Positions 30,218 to 36,770 of a stretch of 64,000 nucleotides of DNA are shown here, piece after piece; position 1 is the first letter of the stretch; each line of letters opens with the position of its first letter. The position numbers and the translations under genes are program-made. The notes beneath the pieces are model-generated. The model was not told the DNA's origin. It worked only from the letters and a program-made list of their open reading frames with translations, and did no database searches. This stretch comes from Sphingorhabdus lutea (GTDB lineage: Bacteria > Pseudomonadota > Alphaproteobacteria > Sphingomonadales > Sphingomonadaceae): NCBI RefSeq assembly GCF_001889025.1, contig NZ_CP018154.1:1354501-1418500 (forward strand). The letters are read 5' to 3'.

Positions 30218-30242
30218 GCCGCTATCCTTTCCGCATGATAAT

Positions 30243-30268
30243 AACCAAATAGGTTATTTGTAGGAAAG
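30243..30268 (-). promoter_or_regulatory. Operator-like element upstream of the endolysin gene
   Basis: AACCAAATAGGTT at 30243-30255 differs by one base from the perfect palindrome AACCTAATAGGTT at 36174-36186. A second word, TGTAGGAAAG at 30259-30268, is the exact reverse complement of CTTTCCTACA at 36191-36200. TAGG cores at 30250 and 30261 are 11 bases apart, about one helical turn. Position just upstream of the start fits a repressor site. Confidence 0.6.
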
Positions 30269-30432
30269 AATAATTTTTATAAATGGGCGTTTAGTTTGTT
30301 ATATAATGGCGGCGTAAAGTAGCAGTGGGCGCTATATATATAAATTAAAAATATTATGCTGATCTAAGGTTGTGATAAAGCCTGCCCGAAATAAACAGGG
30401 CTATAAAATAAATCAGATTTTTTTAGAAAAAT

Positions 30433-30509
30433 TGGTCGGGACGAGAGGATTCGAACCTCCGACCCCCACACCCCCAGTGTGATGCGCTACCAGGCTGCGC
30501 TACGTCCCG
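30433..30509 (-). tRNA. tRNA-Pro(GGG) with encoded CCA
   Basis: On the reverse strand the acceptor CGGGACG (from 30509) pairs with CGTCCCG ending at 30437. The D-arm GCGC...GCGC, the anticodon arm TCACA-CTGGGGG-TGTGG and the T-arm with GGTTCGAATCC are complete. Positions 34-36 read GGG, so it decodes CCC/CCU proline codons. The discriminator A is at 30436 and the CCA end at 30433-30435 is encoded. It stands alone between the endolysin operon and yajC. Confidence 0.95.
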
Positions 30510-30892
30510 ACCATGGGCAGGCATATATGTGGGACGGGATATAAGTGCAAGCAACTTTAACGATATAAAGCAAAAATATTGAGATTTTTTCGAAGATGTA
30601 AAAATTTAGCGCTGAGTTCATGTTCAAAATATTAGTTAATTGATGAAAATATAAGAGTGAGGATAGGTAATTAAGGCGAAATCCCACCTCGTCATAATTC
30701 GCTATAGGCCTTGTTTGGCGTTGCAGTATATTATGCAGCATGATAAGCGCGTGCATTGAAAAAATAGGATGCCGAACTTATTTGATTGAAAGCTGTTTTA
30801 TATTCAAATCTTTGAACAGTTTGAATATAAAACAATGCCGGTAAATTATTGAAATTATTTGGCAATGTAAAATATCTAGTGGGGAATATATA
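30510..30892. other. 383-base intergenic region before yajC
   Basis: AT-rich, with no credible reading frame on either strand. It must hold the tRNA promoter near its left end and the yajC-secDF promoter on the right. The only clear structure is the long inverted repeat at 30794-30834. Confidence 0.5.
30794..30834. repeat. Perfect 15-base inverted repeat in the yajC leader
   Basis: TGTTTTATATTCAAA (30794-30808) is exactly complementary in reverse to 30820-30834 across an 11-base loop. The loop itself contains TTTGAA at 30811-30816, which can pair with TTCAAA at 30803-30808, so two exclusive hairpins are possible. No T-run follows. It lies 59 bases before the yajC start. Confidence 0.7.
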
Positions 30893-31225
30893 GTGGATTA
30901 TTTGTTTTTTATGGCGCAGGGCGCTGCATCATCATCATCAGGTGCAGGATTTTTGGTTAATGTCATGCCATTAATTTTGATATTTTTTGTGTTTTATTTC
31001 TTCATTATTCGCCCACAAAGCAAACGTCAAAAGGCGCATGAAGCCAAAATTGGTGCGGTTCAAAAAAATGATAATGTGGTTACCGCAGGCGGCCTGATGG
31101 GCAAGGTTACAAAGGTTGCTGATGACCATGTGGAGGTGGAAATTGCCACTGGTGTTCGGGTAAAGGCTGTAAAAAATACCCTGGCCGATGTGCAATCGCG
31201 CAATGCAAAACCTGCAAATGACTAA
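30893..31225 (+). CDS. yajC: Preprotein translocase subunit YajC
   Basis: A 110-residue single-span membrane protein, partner of SecD/SecF in the Sec holotranslocon. After an N-terminal extension it has the membrane helix NVMPLILIFFVFYFFIIRPQSKRQK and the conserved cytosolic domain VQKNDNVVTAGGLMGKVTKVADDHVEVEIATGVRVK. The start is GTG at 30893; an ATG at 30911 is the alternative. It is followed by secD after 77 bases, the classic yajC-secD-secF order. Confidence 0.94.
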   Translation: MDYLFFMAQGAASSSSGAGFLVNVMPLILIFFVFYFFIIRPQSKRQKAHEAKIGAVQKNDNVVTAGGLMGKVTKVADDHVEVEIATGVRVKAVKNTLADVQSRNAKPAND

Positions 31226-31302
31226 TCAGGTTTTATAAATTTAATACTTATACATATTGGTTACCTCTATTTATTTTAGAGCTGATTTGAACGGAATATT
31301 GA

Positions 31303-32901
31303 ATGTCAGATTTTACCAAGCCAAGAATTTGGTTCTTAAACGCAATATTATTGGTGGGGATATTATTTTCCTTGCCAAGTTTGTTGCCGCAAAAAATTCA
31401 TGATCAAATTCCTTCATTTCTGCCCAGCAAAACAATCAATCTTGGACTCGACCTTGCCGGTGGTAGCCACATTTTGTTGGAAGCTGACCCAGCAGAGGTA
31501 ATCACCATTAGGCTTGAGCAAATGGAGGATTCGGTTCGTAGCGCCATGCGCAAGGCCGAGCCGCGCATTGCGATTGAGAATATATCACGTGCGGGTAATA
31601 AATTAAGCTTTGTGGTTACAGACCCCAGTCAGGTTGATGCCGCGCGGGAGGCTGTATTACCGTTAATGGGCTCTGCCTCTGGCGGGCGTGATTATGAATT
31701 AAGCGTAGTTGACGGCAATAAAATGATCCTGACCCCAACGCAGCAAAGCATTTCCGATTCAATCGACAATGCGATGGATTCTGCCAAGGATGTTATTGAC
31801 CGCCGGATTAACGCACTTGGCACATTAGAGCCGACAATTATTCGTGAAGGGAGTGAGCGTATTGTGGTGCAGGCTCCTGGGCTTGCCGATCCAGAGGCGT
31901 TGAAAAGATTAATTGGTAAAACGGCAAAGCTGGAATTTAAGTTGGTGGATGAAAATGCCGATCCAGCGGAAACCGCGCAGGGCAAGGCAAGGGTAGGCAG
32001 CCAGATTCTGCCCTATCCCTCTAACCCAAGTGGCACGCCAGTTATTGCTGTCCGCCGGTTGGGCGGCATTGGCGGCGATCGGTTGACCGGCGCACAACAG
32101 GGATTTGACAGCCAAAGCAATGAACCGGTTGTCAATATCTCCTTTGATACAGAGGGCGGGCGCAAATTTGCCGATATGACTACAAAAAATACTGGTAAAT
32201 TATTTGCCATTATTTTGGATGGTCAGGTTATCTCTGCGCCGCGGATTAACGAACCCATTCGCGGCGGGCAGTCGCAAATTTCGGGCAGCTTTACGGTGGA
32301 AAGCGCCAATGACCTTGCCATTGCATTGAACAGCGGCGCATTGCCCGTTGAATTAAAAGTGGTGGAGGAGCGCTCCGTTGGTCCAGATTTGGGTGCAGAC
32401 TCCATTAAAAAAGGTGTGTTAGCAGCGCTTATCGGAACAACGGCTGTTTTGTTTTTTATGCTGCTTACCTATGGCCGATTTGGTGTTTATGCCAATTTGG
32501 CGTTGGTATTAAATGTGTTTTTAATTTTAGGTGTCATGGCGATGATCGGTTCTACCCTGACATTGCCGGGCATTGCCGGATTCGTGCTGACCATTGGCGC
32601 GGCGGTTGACGCAAATGTGCTTATTAACGAGCGGATACGCGAAGAACAAAGGCGAGGGCGCAAAATTATCGCCGCGATTGAAAATGGTTATAAAGAGGCC
32701 AGTCGCGCAATTTTTGACGCGAACATCACCAATGTGATTGCCGGTGTTTTATTATTTGCATTTGGCTCTGGCCCTGTTCGCGGATTTGCCGTGGTTCTTA
32801 TCATCGGTATTATCACCAGTGTGTTTACCGCCGTTACAATTACAAGAATGTGGGTATCTTTCTGGTTAAAAAGAAACCGCCCCACAGAATTGGTTATATA
32901 A
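31303..32901 (+). CDS. secD: Protein translocase subunit SecD
   Basis: A 532-residue inner-membrane RND-like subunit that uses the proton gradient to help pull exported proteins across. There is one N-terminal helix, then the periplasmic P1 region with LGLDLAGGSHILLEAD, then ALNSGALPVELKVVEERSVGPDLG before five C-terminal helices (TIGAAVDANVLINERIREE). The length is usual for alphaproteobacterial SecD. secF starts 7 bases after the stop. Confidence 0.96.
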   Translation: MSDFTKPRIWFLNAILLVGILFSLPSLLPQKIHDQIPSFLPSKTINLGLDLAGGSHILLEADPAEVITIRLEQMEDSVRSAMRKAEPRIAIENISRAGNKLSFVVTDPSQVDAAREAVLPLMGSASGGRDYELSVVDGNKMILTPTQQSISDSIDNAMDSAKDVIDRRINALGTLEPTIIREGSERIVVQAPGLADPEALKRLIGKTAKLEFKLVDENADPAETAQGKARVGSQILPYPSNPSGTPVIAVRRLGGIGGDRLTGAQQGFDSQSNEPVVNISFDTEGGRKFADMTTKNTGKLFAIILDGQVISAPRINEPIRGGQSQISGSFTVESANDLAIALNSGALPVELKVVEERSVGPDLGADSIKKGVLAALIGTTAVLFFMLLTYGRFGVYANLALVLNVFLILGVMAMIGSTLTLPGIAGFVLTIGAAVDANVLINERIREEQRRGRKIIAAIENGYKEASRAIFDANITNVIAGVLLFAFGSGPVRGFAVVLIIGIITSVFTAVTITRMWVSFWLKRNRPTELVI

Positions 32902-32907
32902 GGGATT

Positions 32908-33903
32908 ATGACGATGAAACTATTGAAACTGGTTCCAGACAATACCAATTTTCGTTTTTTAAGATTGCGCAATTTTGCCATTGGCATCAGCGTGCTTTTA
33001 ATGATTGCCTCGTTAATTTTGGTCGGCACGCGCGGGTTAAACTATGGCGTCGATTTTATTGGCGGACAGATGATAAGGGCGACATTCACCCAAACAAAAG
33101 AAGCACCAGTGTCCGAATTGCGTCACCAAATTGGCGCTTTGGGTTATGGTGAGCCGACAATACAAAGATTTGGGCAAGAAAACCAAATCTCCATCCGGAT
33201 GAAATTACCTGAAGGCGCGGATAAAAATCCAGAACTTGCCAATATTATGGCGGATAAAATTACCGCTTCGTTGAAAAGCAATCATAAGGATGTACGGGTC
33301 GATGGCGTGGATTCGGTTTCGGGTAAGGTGTCATCGGAATTGTTCAGCACGGGTATCATTTCATTATTGGCGGCTATGATTGCCATTTCAATTTATATTT
33401 GGGTGCGGTTTGAATGGCAATTTGGCGCTGGGGCAATTTTTGCGTTGGTCCATGACGTTACTTTGACCTTTGGCTTATTCTCGCTGACCCAGATGGAATT
33501 TGACCTTAATATCATCGCGGCCTTGCTAACCATTATTGGTTATTCGTTAAATGACACGATTGTGGTATATGACCGCATCAGAGAAAATTTGATGAAATAT
33601 CGTAAGATGGAAGTTCCCGCTTTGCTGGATCTTTCGGTCAATGAAACCTTGTCTAGAACAGTGATGACAAGTTTGACCATTTTAATGCCATTATCGATTT
33701 TGGTTCTTTTCGGTCCAAATGTAATTTTTGGTTTTGCGGTGGCAATGGCATTTGGTATTTTTGTCGGCACTTATTCCTCCATTTATATGGCTGCGCCTTT
33801 CCTGATTTGGTTAAAAGTTCGCGCGGACAGCTTTGTCCCTGTAAATGAAGGAAATGACGATAATGCAGCGCGGATGCAGGAAGGATATGGCGCGGTGGTT
33901 TAA
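32908..33903 (+). CDS. secF: Protein translocase subunit SecF
   Basis: Forms the SecDF complex with the upstream product. The 331-residue protein has one N-terminal helix, GLNYGVDFIGGQMIRATF, a periplasmic domain, and five C-terminal helices including YSLNDTIVVYDRIRENL and NETLSRTVMTSLT. The ATG at 32908 lies six bases after the secD stop with AGGG before it. A small Mth938-like gene follows 24 bases downstream. Confidence 0.96.
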   Translation: MTMKLLKLVPDNTNFRFLRLRNFAIGISVLLMIASLILVGTRGLNYGVDFIGGQMIRATFTQTKEAPVSELRHQIGALGYGEPTIQRFGQENQISIRMKLPEGADKNPELANIMADKITASLKSNHKDVRVDGVDSVSGKVSSELFSTGIISLLAAMIAISIYIWVRFEWQFGAGAIFALVHDVTLTFGLFSLTQMEFDLNIIAALLTIIGYSLNDTIVVYDRIRENLMKYRKMEVPALLDLSVNETLSRTVMTSLTILMPLSILVLFGPNVIFGFAVAMAFGIFVGTYSSIYMAAPFLIWLKVRADSFVPVNEGNDDNAARMQEGYGAVV

Positions 33904-33927
33904 TCCACCGTTTCATACACGCTTTTT

Positions 33928-34311
33928 ATGATAGAGCTTCATCGTGATGATGCACCTCAAGGGCCGTTTATTTCGCATATGGGCGAACGCGGTTTTTGCA
34001 TCAATAAAATTTGGTATAGCGGCGGCATTTGGATGACGGGTGACATGGCATGTGATTGGTTGCCGCCTGCACTGGAAAATCTTACGCTTAATGATTTACA
34101 GCCTTTATTTGACCAATTGCCACATATTGAAATGCTATTATTGGGCACGGGGCAAAATCTTATCTGGCCAAATGGCACAATGCGGCGTGCGATGCGCGAT
34201 ATTGGCATTGGTTTAGAGGTTATGGACAGCAAAGCAGCGGCGCGCAGCTGGTCATTTCTGCGTGCGGAGGGGCGATTGGTCGCGGCGGCTTTATATCCGC
34301 ATGGTGCATAA
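33928..34311 (+). CDS. Mth938/NDUFAF3-like small protein
   Basis: A 127-residue soluble protein of the Mth938-like (DUF498) family, related to mitochondrial complex I assembly factor NDUFAF3. Conserved patterns are GGIWMTGDMACDWLP, LLLGTGQNLIWP, GIGLEVMDSKAAARSWSFL and RLVAAALYPHG. A position downstream of secF is common in Alphaproteobacteria. The biochemical role in bacteria is not settled. It ends the secDF operon. Confidence 0.82.
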   Translation: MIELHRDDAPQGPFISHMGERGFCINKIWYSGGIWMTGDMACDWLPPALENLTLNDLQPLFDQLPHIEMLLLGTGQNLIWPNGTMRRAMRDIGIGLEVMDSKAAARSWSFLRAEGRLVAAALYPHGA

Positions 34312-34337
34312 ATTTCCGTCCTATGTGGCCGAATATA

Positions 34338-35531
34338 TCATTGTGATTGGTTTATACCGACAATATTTTTAAAATATTTTGCCAATAATCGGCCATTTTC
34401 ATGCCATGAAAATTGGGCAGCTTGCTCCGCAATGGCTGCTGGAGTGGCGCGGTTTTTGGCAAGTAAATTTACCGCATCGACAATCGCATCGGCGCTGCGT
34501 TCAATCAAATATCCGCTATCTGGGCCTCTGACCAATTCCTCTGCACCGCCCACATTACATGTTATAATCGGTGTGCCGCAACCAATGGATTCGACCCACG
34601 CATTGGCCAACCCTTCGGACGCAGTGGGCAACACCATGGCAAAGGCATGTTGGTATAAGGACGGCAGGTCTTCATTATCCACATTGCCCAAAAATGTGAC
34701 ACGGTCCGAAAGGCCAAGCGAGGCTGCCTGAGCACGTAAAGCTGCTTCATCTGGTCCGCTGCCGGCCAAAACATAATGATAATGCTTGGGTAAAGACGCC
34801 ACCGCGTCAATGACAAATGATTGGCCCTTACGTTCGATTAAGGCGCCAACGGATAATAAATAAGGGGCATTACCACCTTTGGAGGTTAAAATATCGGGTA
34901 ATTGCCCTGCCTTTGTGCTGGGGTGAAATTTATTGCGGTCCAAACCTGTATAATGGACGGTTATTTTATTTTCATTCACGCCATACGCCACAATATCGCG
35001 TTTTAATGCGCCCGAAACGGCAAATAAATGCACTGCATTGTCCGCCGCCTTTTTCCATAAATTTTTGCAACCAAATTTACTTCCCCAAAGATGAACATCG
35101 GCGCCCCTTGCCTTTATGGTATAAGGGATGTTCAATTTTTCCGCCACTATCATCGCGGCAGGACCATCGGGATAGAAAAATTCTGCATCAATCACATCAA
35201 TGGGGGATTGGGCATGAATTTTTTTTATGATTGGTAAAATGGCCGATGCAATGAAGTGCGGATTTACTGGCCCACCAAATTTGGGGATAAGAGGAAATGA
35301 GGGGCGAAAAATTTTTAATCCGCGCCAATCTGAGGCAATATTTGAAACCAGATGTTTATTTGTCGATGGCATAAATATTGAAATGGGCCATGGGGCAATG
35401 CCAATGGGGTTGATTACCGTGACCTTTACATTATCTTGCGCTGCAAGTGAGGCGGTTTGACGCTCAACAAATATGCCGAAATTCGGCCTGTCGCTATTTG
35501 GAAAAAGTGTAGAGAGCGTCAAAATATGCAT
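34338..35531 (-). CDS. Glycosyltransferase, GT4 family
   Basis: A 397-residue GT-B enzyme: the N-terminal domain MHILTLSTLFPNSDRPNFGIFVERQ is typical of a GT4 subgroup for exopolysaccharide or lipid-linked sugars. The donor domain contains LSVGALIERKGQSFVIDAV, VTFLGNVDNEDLPSLYQHA and PTASEGLANAWVESIGCGTPIITCNVGG. It is isolated from the polysaccharide locus by about 5.5 kb and convergent with the secDF operon. Codon use is host-like. Substrate unknown. Confidence 0.87.
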   Translation of the reverse strand: MHILTLSTLFPNSDRPNFGIFVERQTASLAAQDNVKVTVINPIGIAPWPISIFMPSTNKHLVSNIASDWRGLKIFRPSFPLIPKFGGPVNPHFIASAILPIIKKIHAQSPIDVIDAEFFYPDGPAAMIVAEKLNIPYTIKARGADVHLWGSKFGCKNLWKKAADNAVHLFAVSGALKRDIVAYGVNENKITVHYTGLDRNKFHPSTKAGQLPDILTSKGGNAPYLLSVGALIERKGQSFVIDAVASLPKHYHYVLAGSGPDEAALRAQAASLGLSDRVTFLGNVDNEDLPSLYQHAFAMVLPTASEGLANAWVESIGCGTPIITCNVGGAEELVRGPDSGYLIERSADAIVDAVNLLAKNRATPAAIAEQAAQFSWHENGRLLAKYFKNIVGINQSQ

Positions 35532-35585
35532 TTAATGTCATTATGCCCCATGAATAAATTTATTGAATAAAAATAGGCTTAATAT

Positions 35586-36152
35586 TTACATAAGCTGCCG
35601 AAATAAATTGCGTGCGCGGCCAATCCACGCCGGATCGTTCAAAATTTGTTGTCTTTGCCCCGCATGATGCGGCAAAATTTGAATACGTCCATTCTCGCGC
35701 CCAATTAAACGGCCAAAGATAAAGCGCCCATCGGGTCGCGGGACCAAAATATCGGCGTTTAGCGCCTCAATAAATTGGGTGGGGGGTAATTTTTGCAGCC
35801 AAATCTCATCACCTGCGCGATATTCGCCGCTGCTTATTGCCATGCGCATTGCCATCATATTTTCATCGGCCATGGGGCTTAATGATTTTTGCGGCGTGCC
35901 GGGCGCAAGGCAGCCTTTTTCATCCAAAATTGCTGCTATTTCAATTTCTGACTGCTGCGCAATGGCGATTAAATCGGCGCTATTCACATTTAAAGCTGCG
36001 GCAATACGGTTTAACCAATCAATCGATAATGTCCGCATGCCCGTTTCCAAACGGCCAATTGTCTGCGCTGTAGTGGGCGGGGTGCAGCGCATGGCAACAT
36101 CGGCCAAAGTCATTTTTTTTTGAATTCTTATGCTGCGAATATGGTTTTTCAT
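35586..36152 (-). CDS. XRE-family regulator divergent from a DUF6456 gene
   Basis: A 188-residue DNA-binding protein. Residues about 3-60 form a Cro/CI-type helix-turn-helix (IRSIRIQKKMTLADVAMRC...TIGRLETGMRTLSIDWLNRIAAAL). The C-terminal part (GDEIWLQKL...DILVPRPDGRFIFGRLIG) has the beta pattern of a LexA-like dimerisation domain, without a visible autocleavage site. A perfect palindrome 21 bases before its start is the likely autoregulatory operator, and a near copy precedes the endolysin gene. I infer a repressor of a lysis/GTA circuit; this is not shown. Confidence 0.8.
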   Translation of the reverse strand: MKNHIRSIRIQKKMTLADVAMRCTPPTTAQTIGRLETGMRTLSIDWLNRIAAALNVNSADLIAIAQQSEIEIAAILDEKGCLAPGTPQKSLSPMADENMMAMRMAISSGEYRAGDEIWLQKLPPTQFIEALNADILVPRPDGRFIFGRLIGRENGRIQILPHHAGQRQQILNDPAWIGRARNLFRQLM

Positions 36153-36173
36153 CTTGCTGCCTAAAATTTTTTT

Positions 36174-36200
36174 AACCTAATAGGTTTTTACTTTCCTACA
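36174..36200. promoter_or_regulatory. Palindromic operator between the XRE and DUF6456 genes
   Basis: AACCTAATAGGTT at 36174-36186 is a perfect palindrome with 6-base arms around a central A. CTTTCCTACA follows at 36191-36200. CCTA/TAGG cores recur at 36176, 36181 and 36195. A second inverted repeat, GCCAAAATGGC, is at 36206-36216. Both divergent promoters must lie in this 99-base gap. Compare 30243-30268. Confidence 0.6.
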
Positions 36201-36251
36201 TTATCGCCAAAATGGCAAGTATATATTTATATTTTAAGATGGAGAATCAAT

Positions 36252-36770
36252 ATGAATAAAAAAATGTCGGTGGGTGATATTGGTTATAATTTCGGGATGG
36301 ACCGTAAAATGGTGGATAAAGATATTAAAGAAAATATAGGAATATCGGGCCGGGTTCGAAAAAGAACCGTTTCGGTTAATTTACATGAATCCCCCTTGGG
36401 ATGGTTGCACAGCCACGGCCATATTAACGACGCGCAATTATTAGCAGGAGAGAAATTGCGCCGTGATTTTGAAATGGCGGGTCTATCGCCCAATGTGACC
36501 ATGAATTGGGATGGGTTATCGGTGCGTCATGGAAAAAATGGCGCGGCGCAAAGCCCGATTAGCCATGTGGCAATTGATGCAAAGGCCAGATTTCTGTTGG
36601 CGATGAAAGAAATGGGCAGCGATTTATATGATATTTGTTGGCGGGTTATTTGCGCGGGAGAGAAGATAAATTTGGCTGAGCGTCAATTGGGCTGGCCAAA
36701 TCGTTCCGGAAAACTGGTGCTGCGCATTGCTTTGGACCGATTGGTGCGGCATTATAAAATATCATTATAA
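36252..36770 (+). CDS. DUF6456 domain protein
   Basis: A 172-residue soluble protein. It has a short basic N-terminal part, then the DUF6456 pattern: ESPLGWLHSHGHINDAQLLAGEKLRRDFEMAGL, IDAKARFLLAMKEMGSDLYDICWRVICAGEKI and RQLGWPNRSGKLVLRIALDRLVRHY. The last region looks like a sigma-region-4 or HTH-like helical unit. From memory, related domains occur in alphaproteobacterial gene-transfer-agent activators (GafA/GafY group); this needs a profile search. GGAG precedes the ATG. Divergence from an XRE repressor suggests an activator under its control. Confidence 0.78.
   Translation: MNKKMSVGDIGYNFGMDRKMVDKDIKENIGISGRVRKRTVSVNLHESPLGWLHSHGHINDAQLLAGEKLRRDFEMAGLSPNVTMNWDGLSVRHGKNGAAQSPISHVAIDAKARFLLAMKEMGSDLYDICWRVICAGEKINLAERQLGWPNRSGKLVLRIALDRLVRHYKISL

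Follow-up and report, generated by a model that had tools for sequence, protein, structure and literature searches.

Control of gene transfer agents (GTAs) has already been worked out in Rhodobacter and Caulobacter, and the Sphingomonadales carry clusters like that of the Rhodobacter capsulatus GTA (RcGTA). RogA of Caulobacter crescentus is described as a protein with a helix-turn-helix (HTH) and a LexA-like domain without the key cleavage residues, which represses gafYZ (PMC9632790). Similarly, CdxB is reported to repress both gafYZ and lypABC (PMC13236601), and further XRE proteins have been reported to repress gafYZ (PMC10688885). The domain DUF6456 is given as that of GafA and GafZ (PMC9638019, PMC9765227), and the N-termini of GafY and GafA are described as DnaA-like (PMC9638019, PMC6363796). 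No sphingomonad GTA repressor or operator was found in the open-licence PubMed Central literature. Here, we analysed a 64,000-nucleotide stretch of Sphingorhabdus lutea (the window; positions 1354501-1418500 of a single 2.53 Mb contig), in which a palindrome with the arms AACC-N5-GGTT stands between a gene for an XRE-type protein (hereafter XRE) and a divergent, gafZ-like DUF6456 gene, and again before an endolysin-holin pair. The palindrome is a genuine GTA operator of wide conservation, and its candidate reader is a CI-like protein; repressor coupling of GTA activators and lysis is known in kind from RogA and CdxB, and the form described here appears to be new. We consider it likely that XRE is a dedicated CI-like GTA repressor that directly gates the modules for regulation, capsid and lysis; that it binds there, and with which sign, is what we infer from the sequences.

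The operator and its conservation

The initial annotation had reported two palindromes, each followed by the same 10-base word, and all four positions were exact on recheck. The 13-base site AACCTAATAGGTT lies 21 bases before the XRE start, and the related site AACCAAATAGGTT lies 25 bases before the endolysin start. The former had been called a perfect palindrome, which is true of its arms but not of its central base. The word had been said to occur in opposite orientation (CTTTCCTACA at the first site, TGTAGGAAAG at the second), and promoter direction explains this: it runs along transcription at both gafZ and the lysis genes, with the palindrome preceding the word at gafZ and following it at lysis. 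In the 2.53 Mb genome, AACCWAATAGGTT has exactly three exact matches, all intergenic and GTA-related, namely before endolysin-holin, between XRE and DUF6456, and before the terminase-portal-capsid operon. The third copy (2349031-2349043), which is 0.96 Mb away and precedes a small-terminase-like open reading frame (ORF), is the only other exact copy, and it lies where the proposed genome scan would have it, in front of GTA terminase and capsid genes. Eight further places with one mismatch to AACCWAATAGGTT all fall within ORFs, and the whole-genome scan found no fourth intergenic site at up to one mismatch; the many copies at unrelated genes that could have undone the idea did not turn up. The two sites first noticed have thus stood, but the capsid operon, the spread of the site and the sister-family layout had been missed.

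The bare count of the motif is not enriched. The window holds 6 matches at up to two mismatches, where shuffles average 2.65 and 8 in 100 reach 6; the genome holds 7 forward and 5 reverse matches at up to one mismatch, compared with 15 and 8 matches of the backward control; and the four exact genome copies of the 10-base word are no excess over its control. The non-random part of the motif is its placement and conservation. Upstream of XRE (250 bp scored for AACC-N5-GGTT, with permuted arms as controls), 24 of 25 genus genomes have the arms at up to one mismatch, six of them exactly, compared with 0, 2, 0, 1 and 4 for the permuted arms. Upstream of the endolysin, the same holds for 22/22 genus loci, against 12, 2, 0, 12 and 4; 11 of the 12 matches of the ACAC control fall on the anticodon stem of an adjacent tRNA-Pro (ARAGORN), and the twelfth has the same sequence. 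The surroundings are also fixed. A block close to ACCAAATAGGTTTTTTCTTTCCTACAaTATTtaCCAcATGGCAAG is common to 24/25 genus XRE/gafZ loci, the locus in G004 being one base off in the word. All 22 genus lysis loci with an endolysin match have the word, 3 bp and then AACC-N5-GGTT (20) or ATCC-N5-GGTT (2), 25-40 bp before the start. Of the 14 genus GTA operons, 13 have the operator 7-9 bp before TTGACAT-G when up to two arm mismatches are allowed, and the fourteenth (G011) has a similar block with TTGACAACG.

Conservation extends through the family, where XRE was found in 189/199 genomes and 91/96 genera. Exact arms occur upstream of XRE in 27/36 family loci and arms at up to one mismatch in 33/36 (permuted arms, 0-1 and 0-10); for the lysis loci the figures are 9/17 and 15/17 (permuted arms, 0-2 and 0-5), and where no endolysin was matched the element precedes the holin. 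The operator-TTGAC block, with the same 7-9 bp spacing and again up to two arm mismatches allowed, is found in 11/18 family GTA operons, with the consensus TAACCaaAtnGG-N8-TTGACAtcGTCACGCT. The word in the form T[TG]TCCTACA recurs at XRE/gafZ (24/25 genus and 34/36 family loci) and at lysis (20/22 and 16/17) and is absent from the GTA operons (0/14 and 0/18); conservation at two of the three promoters rules it out as an unrelated repeat. Pooling 124 sites gave the operator aTAACCwAwTwGGTTAt with CC and GG at 99%; the sites were chosen by their arms, so that the arm figures are partly by construction, and the flanks and core are free of this. The XRE counts for the family cover 28 of the best-scoring 30 of the 189 XRE matches plus eight named records, L142 and L145 being already in the genus set. 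Set aside from the lysis counts are G156, G133, G096, G071 and G067 (no XRE match), the second copies G003b and G023b, and G029; the counts for the large terminase (TerL) set aside G133, G067, the fragments in G003, G013, G115 and G156, and the second G002 piece. A combined search with the arms and a second palindrome was too loose, and it was informative for the closest relatives only.

In sister families, nine of the 11 DUF6456 loci examined (families f2, f3, f4 and f6) have XRE as the divergent neighbour of gafZ; the remaining two, both from f7, have a transposase-like ORF at the place of XRE (L036, G030) or are ended by the contig end. In eight of these nine, the terminase genes come after gafZ in the locus itself; in the ninth they are found 1.8 kb downstream. 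Operators near gafZ at up to one mismatch were found in 5/9 (all three f2 loci; G027 and G033 of f4) and with two mismatches in G039, G029 and G035, while G026 of f3 has no clear operator there and retains the 10-base word. Within 1.5 kb upstream of the holin, exact arms occur in G025 and G032 (f2), G027 (f4) and G035 (f6), and paired degenerate sites in G033 and G039 (f4). No convincing holin site was found in G038, G026 (word only), G029 and the genomes of f5, f7 and f8; single one-mismatch matches at some of these loci are at chance level for such windows. XRE is also encoded on five contigs of a viral collection, in three of which gafZ lies 0.7-2.8 kb from terminase genes, and L244 and L245 have exact-arm sites before terS, as L245-L247 do next to XRE. 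Among 50,697 phage records, XRE had no match and DUF6456 one weak match. The comparison of both upstream regions across Sphingomonadales that the initial annotation had proposed therefore shows the sites recurring in the genus, in many family genera and partly in sister families, and the loss in relatives keeping both loci, which would have spoken against it, was not seen, since relatives retain the sites.

The candidate reader and the alternatives

XRE is of LexA/CI type by prediction. Its N-terminus is a Cro/CI-type HTH (HTH_3, 4.1e-07, about residues 5-60), and its C-terminal 120-residue domain has a predicted LexA/lambda-CI fold (model pLDDT 90.7), with matches to LexA and lambda CI in both Foldseek and VIA. 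For the full-length model, the VIA list is filled by the HTH half alone, and Foldseek gives one match at E <= 0.001, with an enzyme first and an HTH second; NCBIfam matches are HTH-level and far below cut-off, and the PDB sequence search gave HTH-level and chance matches only. At 188 aa, XRE does not have the size and plan of CdxB/Rtr (about 132 aa, HTH plus a short dimerisation part). Across 16 XRE C-terminal domains, no Ser or Lys position is fully conserved, and one Lys comes close to it. The catalytic residues thus appear not to be conserved, and RecA-driven self-cleavage is probably not to be expected. XRE was also considered as a GafY and rejected, given its Cro/CI-like HTH and LexA/CI-fold domain and the DnaA-like N-termini described for GafY and GafA; this concerns the neighbour of the DUF6456 gene, and a search for a GafY-like gene elsewhere was not made.

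Co-presence of XRE and site, which is partial, bears on who reads the operator. In three nearly complete genomes (G194, G051 and G184; 99-100% complete; 8, 40 and 5 contigs), XRE is present with an exact-arm operator 18 to 90 bp upstream, and DUF6456, TerL and holin gave no match. G067 (100% complete, 5 contigs) is the reverse case, in which DUF6456, TerL and holin were matched and XRE was not; none of its three loci has the site at up to one mismatch, and CTGTCCTACA still stands before the holin. This pattern points to XRE as the reader, because the operator is kept with XRE where no GTA gene was matched and lost with a GTA where XRE was not matched. Nine of the ten XRE-less family genomes also lack a DUF6456 match, and XRE is divergent from DUF6456 in 25/25 genus genomes. 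The earlier proposal that XRE represses itself, the DUF6456 gene and the endolysin-holin operon gains support from the HTH and LexA/CI-fold domains, the operator positions and the conserved sites, all of them features read from sequence or model.

The promoter context suggests the sign of regulation. The lysis operator fills the spacer of TTCCTA-17-TATTAT, a pair with 8/12 consensus bases that is tied with one other pair; in two f4 genomes it lies in the spacer of TTGAAA-17-TATAAT. A reading of the word as the -35 element at lysis is supported by TTGACAT in G096 and by TTGAAA in the f4 genomes, which stand at its place. In six sister-family genomes (three f2, G027 of f4, two f6), the best promoter-like pair at gafZ ends in TATAAC overlapping the operator. 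Judged by their placement, the lysis-spacer and gafZ -10 overlaps are repressor positions. A sigma-70 scan did not single out the lysis or the GTA promoter. At the gafZ and lysis promoters, nine bases of the word (T[TG]TCCTACA) are conserved, which exceeds what a -35 hexamer requires; a second reader of the word is possible, whether GafZ, an activator or another sigma factor.

Several observations weigh against XRE as a dedicated repressor of all three modules. G096, G133 and G156 keep exact-arm lysis operators (G133 also that of the GTA operon) with no XRE or DUF6456 match; these assemblies are fragmented (200, 90 and 360 contigs), and XRE may lie on a missing contig. The operator-TTGAC block as defined is absent in 7/18 family GTA loci, of which G121 and G065 have looser forms and five have none that could be seen. 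Scored over 1300 bp at TerL, the controls at one mismatch come to as many as 8/14 in the genus and 8/18 in the family, and hence only exact arms (6/14 genus loci vs. 0 in controls; 4/18 family loci vs. 0-2) and fixed spacing count as evidence there. Foldseek support for the C-terminal domain is modest, with two matches at E <= 0.001. The best-scoring promoter pair at gafZ in this genome is not the word, and its -35 role there is uncertain because a different pair scores higher. Finally, the family gafZ and GTA-operon sites lie upstream of the -35-like element, which is not the textbook position of a repressor and could be compatible with activation too.

This last point is the basis of an alternative in which XRE is a dual regulator, like lambda CI at PRM and PR, that represses lysis and itself and activates gafZ and the GTA operon, so that lysis waits for particles. 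We regard it as unlikely: the operator does precede TTGACA by 7-9 bp at the GTA operon and, at most gafZ loci, the word by 4-8 bp, but TTGACA is a consensus element, a near-consensus -35 reportedly made the Caulobacter GTA promoter active with or without GafYZ and needed no activator (PMC11150451), and sister-family operators overlap the gafZ -10 or -35. By analogy, a consensus -35 at the GTA operon would fit a promoter that needs to be held off.

More doubtful still is that GafZ, rather than XRE, reads AACC-N5-GGTT and that the sites are activator or antiterminator loading sites. Caulobacter GafZ reportedly needs a palindrome between -35 and -10 of the GTA promoter (PMC11150451), and the lysis palindrome is likewise placed; against this, the palindrome is retained beside XRE in the three genomes without a DUF6456 match and missing from G067, which has DUF6456. 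A second palindrome, GCC-N5-GGC, is also a better GafZ candidate. This palindrome or a related block is found in the spacer separating the -35-like from the -10-like element, both at gafZ and at the GTA operon, which is the place of the Caulobacter GafZ element; that GafZ binds it is our guess by analogy with the system described in PMC11150451.

That XRE is instead a broad regulator, with the GTA modules only some of its many targets as for Caulobacter CdxB, seems very improbable. It would accommodate the persistence of XRE in three genomes without GTA matches, and the genome-wide scan was confined to near-exact forms of the site; at up to one mismatch to AACCWAATAGGTT, the range that the scan covered, however, the genome has no intergenic site beyond the three. 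An accidental likeness of the two short sequences, for which the unremarkable motif counts might speak, is a practically negligible possibility and is ruled out by conservation that is specific to position, seen at three loci across dozens of genomes and compared with permuted arms.

Neighbouring genes and signs of possible decay

The features of the window are collected in Table 1. GH108 and GTA_holin_3TM matches bear out the naming of the lysis genes as endolysin and holin. The DUF6456 protein carries the domain of the GafA/GafZ family, and a Caulobacter vibrioides control genome also matches PF20057. The cluster at the third site is ordered as a small-terminase-like ORF, TerL, portal, S78 protease, HK97 capsid and RcGTA-type tail genes, and one contiguous run of RcGTA type matches PF17289/PF03237, PF04860, PF04586, PF05065, PF06199 and PF23666 (Rcc01698_C). 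Between the lysis and XRE loci lie YajC/SecD/SecF-like ORFs and a glycosyltransferase-like ORF, named by eye.

Table 1. Positions in the window of the genes and promoter elements discussed
Feature	Position	Strand	Basis or remark
XRE candidate repressor gene, 188 aa	35586..36152	-	HTH_3 4.1e-07; C-terminal model
Operator AACCTAATAGGTT	36174..36186		between XRE and gafZ; arms exact
Conserved word CTTTCCTACA, -35-like, toward gafZ	36191..36200	+	24/25 genus, 34/36 family loci
Second palindrome GCCAAAATGGC, possible GafZ element	36206..36216		related block at most genus gafZ, several GTA promoters
gafZ-like gene, DUF6456, 172 aa, divergent from XRE	36252..36770	+	PF20057 6.9e-38
Operator AACCAAATAGGTT	30243..30255		at lysis promoter
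Conserved word CTTTCCTACA on minus strand, lysis promoter; -35-like TTCCTA at 30261-30266	30259..30268	-	20/22 genus, 16/17 family
-10-like TATTAT of lysis promoter, 17 bp from -35-like hexamer	30238..30243	-	promoter-pair scoring
Endolysin, GH108 + peptidoglycan-binding domain, 178 aa	29681..30217	-	PF05838 1.4e-23, PF09374 3.7e-19
Holin, GTA_holin_3TM, 137 aa	29215..29628	-	PF11351 4.1e-28

Several side observations concern the layout of these genes. Lysis and XRE-gafZ loci lie on one contig and no more than 25 kb apart in 14/22 genus genomes, often about 4-6 kb apart. A tRNA-Pro(GGG) is located just upstream of the lysis cassette (30433-30509, minus strand), and a tRNA-Pro is found in this place at 12/22 genus loci (ARAGORN) and 4/17 family loci; it may reflect synteny or an old attachment site. 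Most DUF6456 ORFs of the genus have 165-180 aa, compared with about 240-331 aa in sister families, as if an N-terminal part had been lost in the genus. Genus genomes also vary in what they keep (G003, G006-G009, G013, G014, G016, G017, G020 and G023 are those concerned). TerL has no match in 9/25 and is present as fragments only in G003 and G013, the endolysin is broken in G007 and G023 and DUF6456 in G008; XRE is found in all 25 and the lysis genes in most, and in G003 a GTA promoter and its operator still precede a short TerL. In sequence terms, this looks like GTA decay in which the repressor is the last to go.

Proposed mechanism and comparison with known systems

In the mechanism that we favour, in which XRE represses all three modules, its HTH domain would read AACC-N5-GGTT, and its LexA/CI-fold domain would probably serve dimerisation and probably no longer cleave itself. 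XRE would bind one operator at each module, that is, at its own divergent promoter with gafZ, at the terminase-portal-capsid operon and at the endolysin-holin operon. With XRE bound, neither the antiterminator nor particles nor lysis enzymes would be made; with XRE released, all three modules could fire, and GafZ would then presumably work as an antiterminator, as in Caulobacter. We see about even chances that this is the still-working immunity region of the prophage ancestral to the Sphingomonadales GTA, whose operator would have stayed with the activator, the capsid operon and the lysis cassette as the prophage scattered, giving a single-tier switch through which one repressor would directly control both the making of particles and the lysis of the host across much of the order. 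It is thus a possible case of a prophage switch outliving its prophage. A single gene and a 13-17 bp operator make GTA induction directly testable, and they offer a handle on what switches GTAs on and a marker for live versus decaying GTAs.

Among known systems, the predicted two-domain fold, the palindromic operators and a repressor gene divergent from an activator-type gene are shared with lambda and 186 CI and LexA (PDB matches), whereas here the catalytic residues are seemingly unconserved and the operators are dispersed over the host chromosome. GafA of Rhodobacter capsulatus is similar in that a single regulator is reported to have as direct targets its own gene, the GTA operon and the endolysin cassette (PMC6363796, PMC9638019); GafA, however, is described as an activator with a DnaA-like N-terminal domain, while the shared regulator here would be CI-like and most likely repressing. 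CdxB, as described, likewise is an XRE-type repressor that ties GTA activator genes to lysis genes, but it has 132 aa with a short dimerisation part, 115 chromatin immunoprecipitation (ChIP) peaks and lypABC as its lysis target (PMC13236601), compared with 188 aa, a LexA/CI-fold domain and sites at the holin-endolysin and capsid operons here. RogA (CCNA_00080), compared by description only, shares the plan of an HTH and a LexA/CI-like C-terminal domain, and its reported target is a GafZ-family activator of an RcGTA-type GTA (PMC9632790). It differs in that the ChIP peaks given in that account are only gafYZ and one gene unchanged in GTA induction, whereas sites here also stand at the capsid and lysis operons, and in that the XRE gene is divergent from gafZ. 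By analogy, the system in Sphingorhabdus lutea would be RogA and CdxB combined in action, with additional sites at the capsid and holin-endolysin operons.

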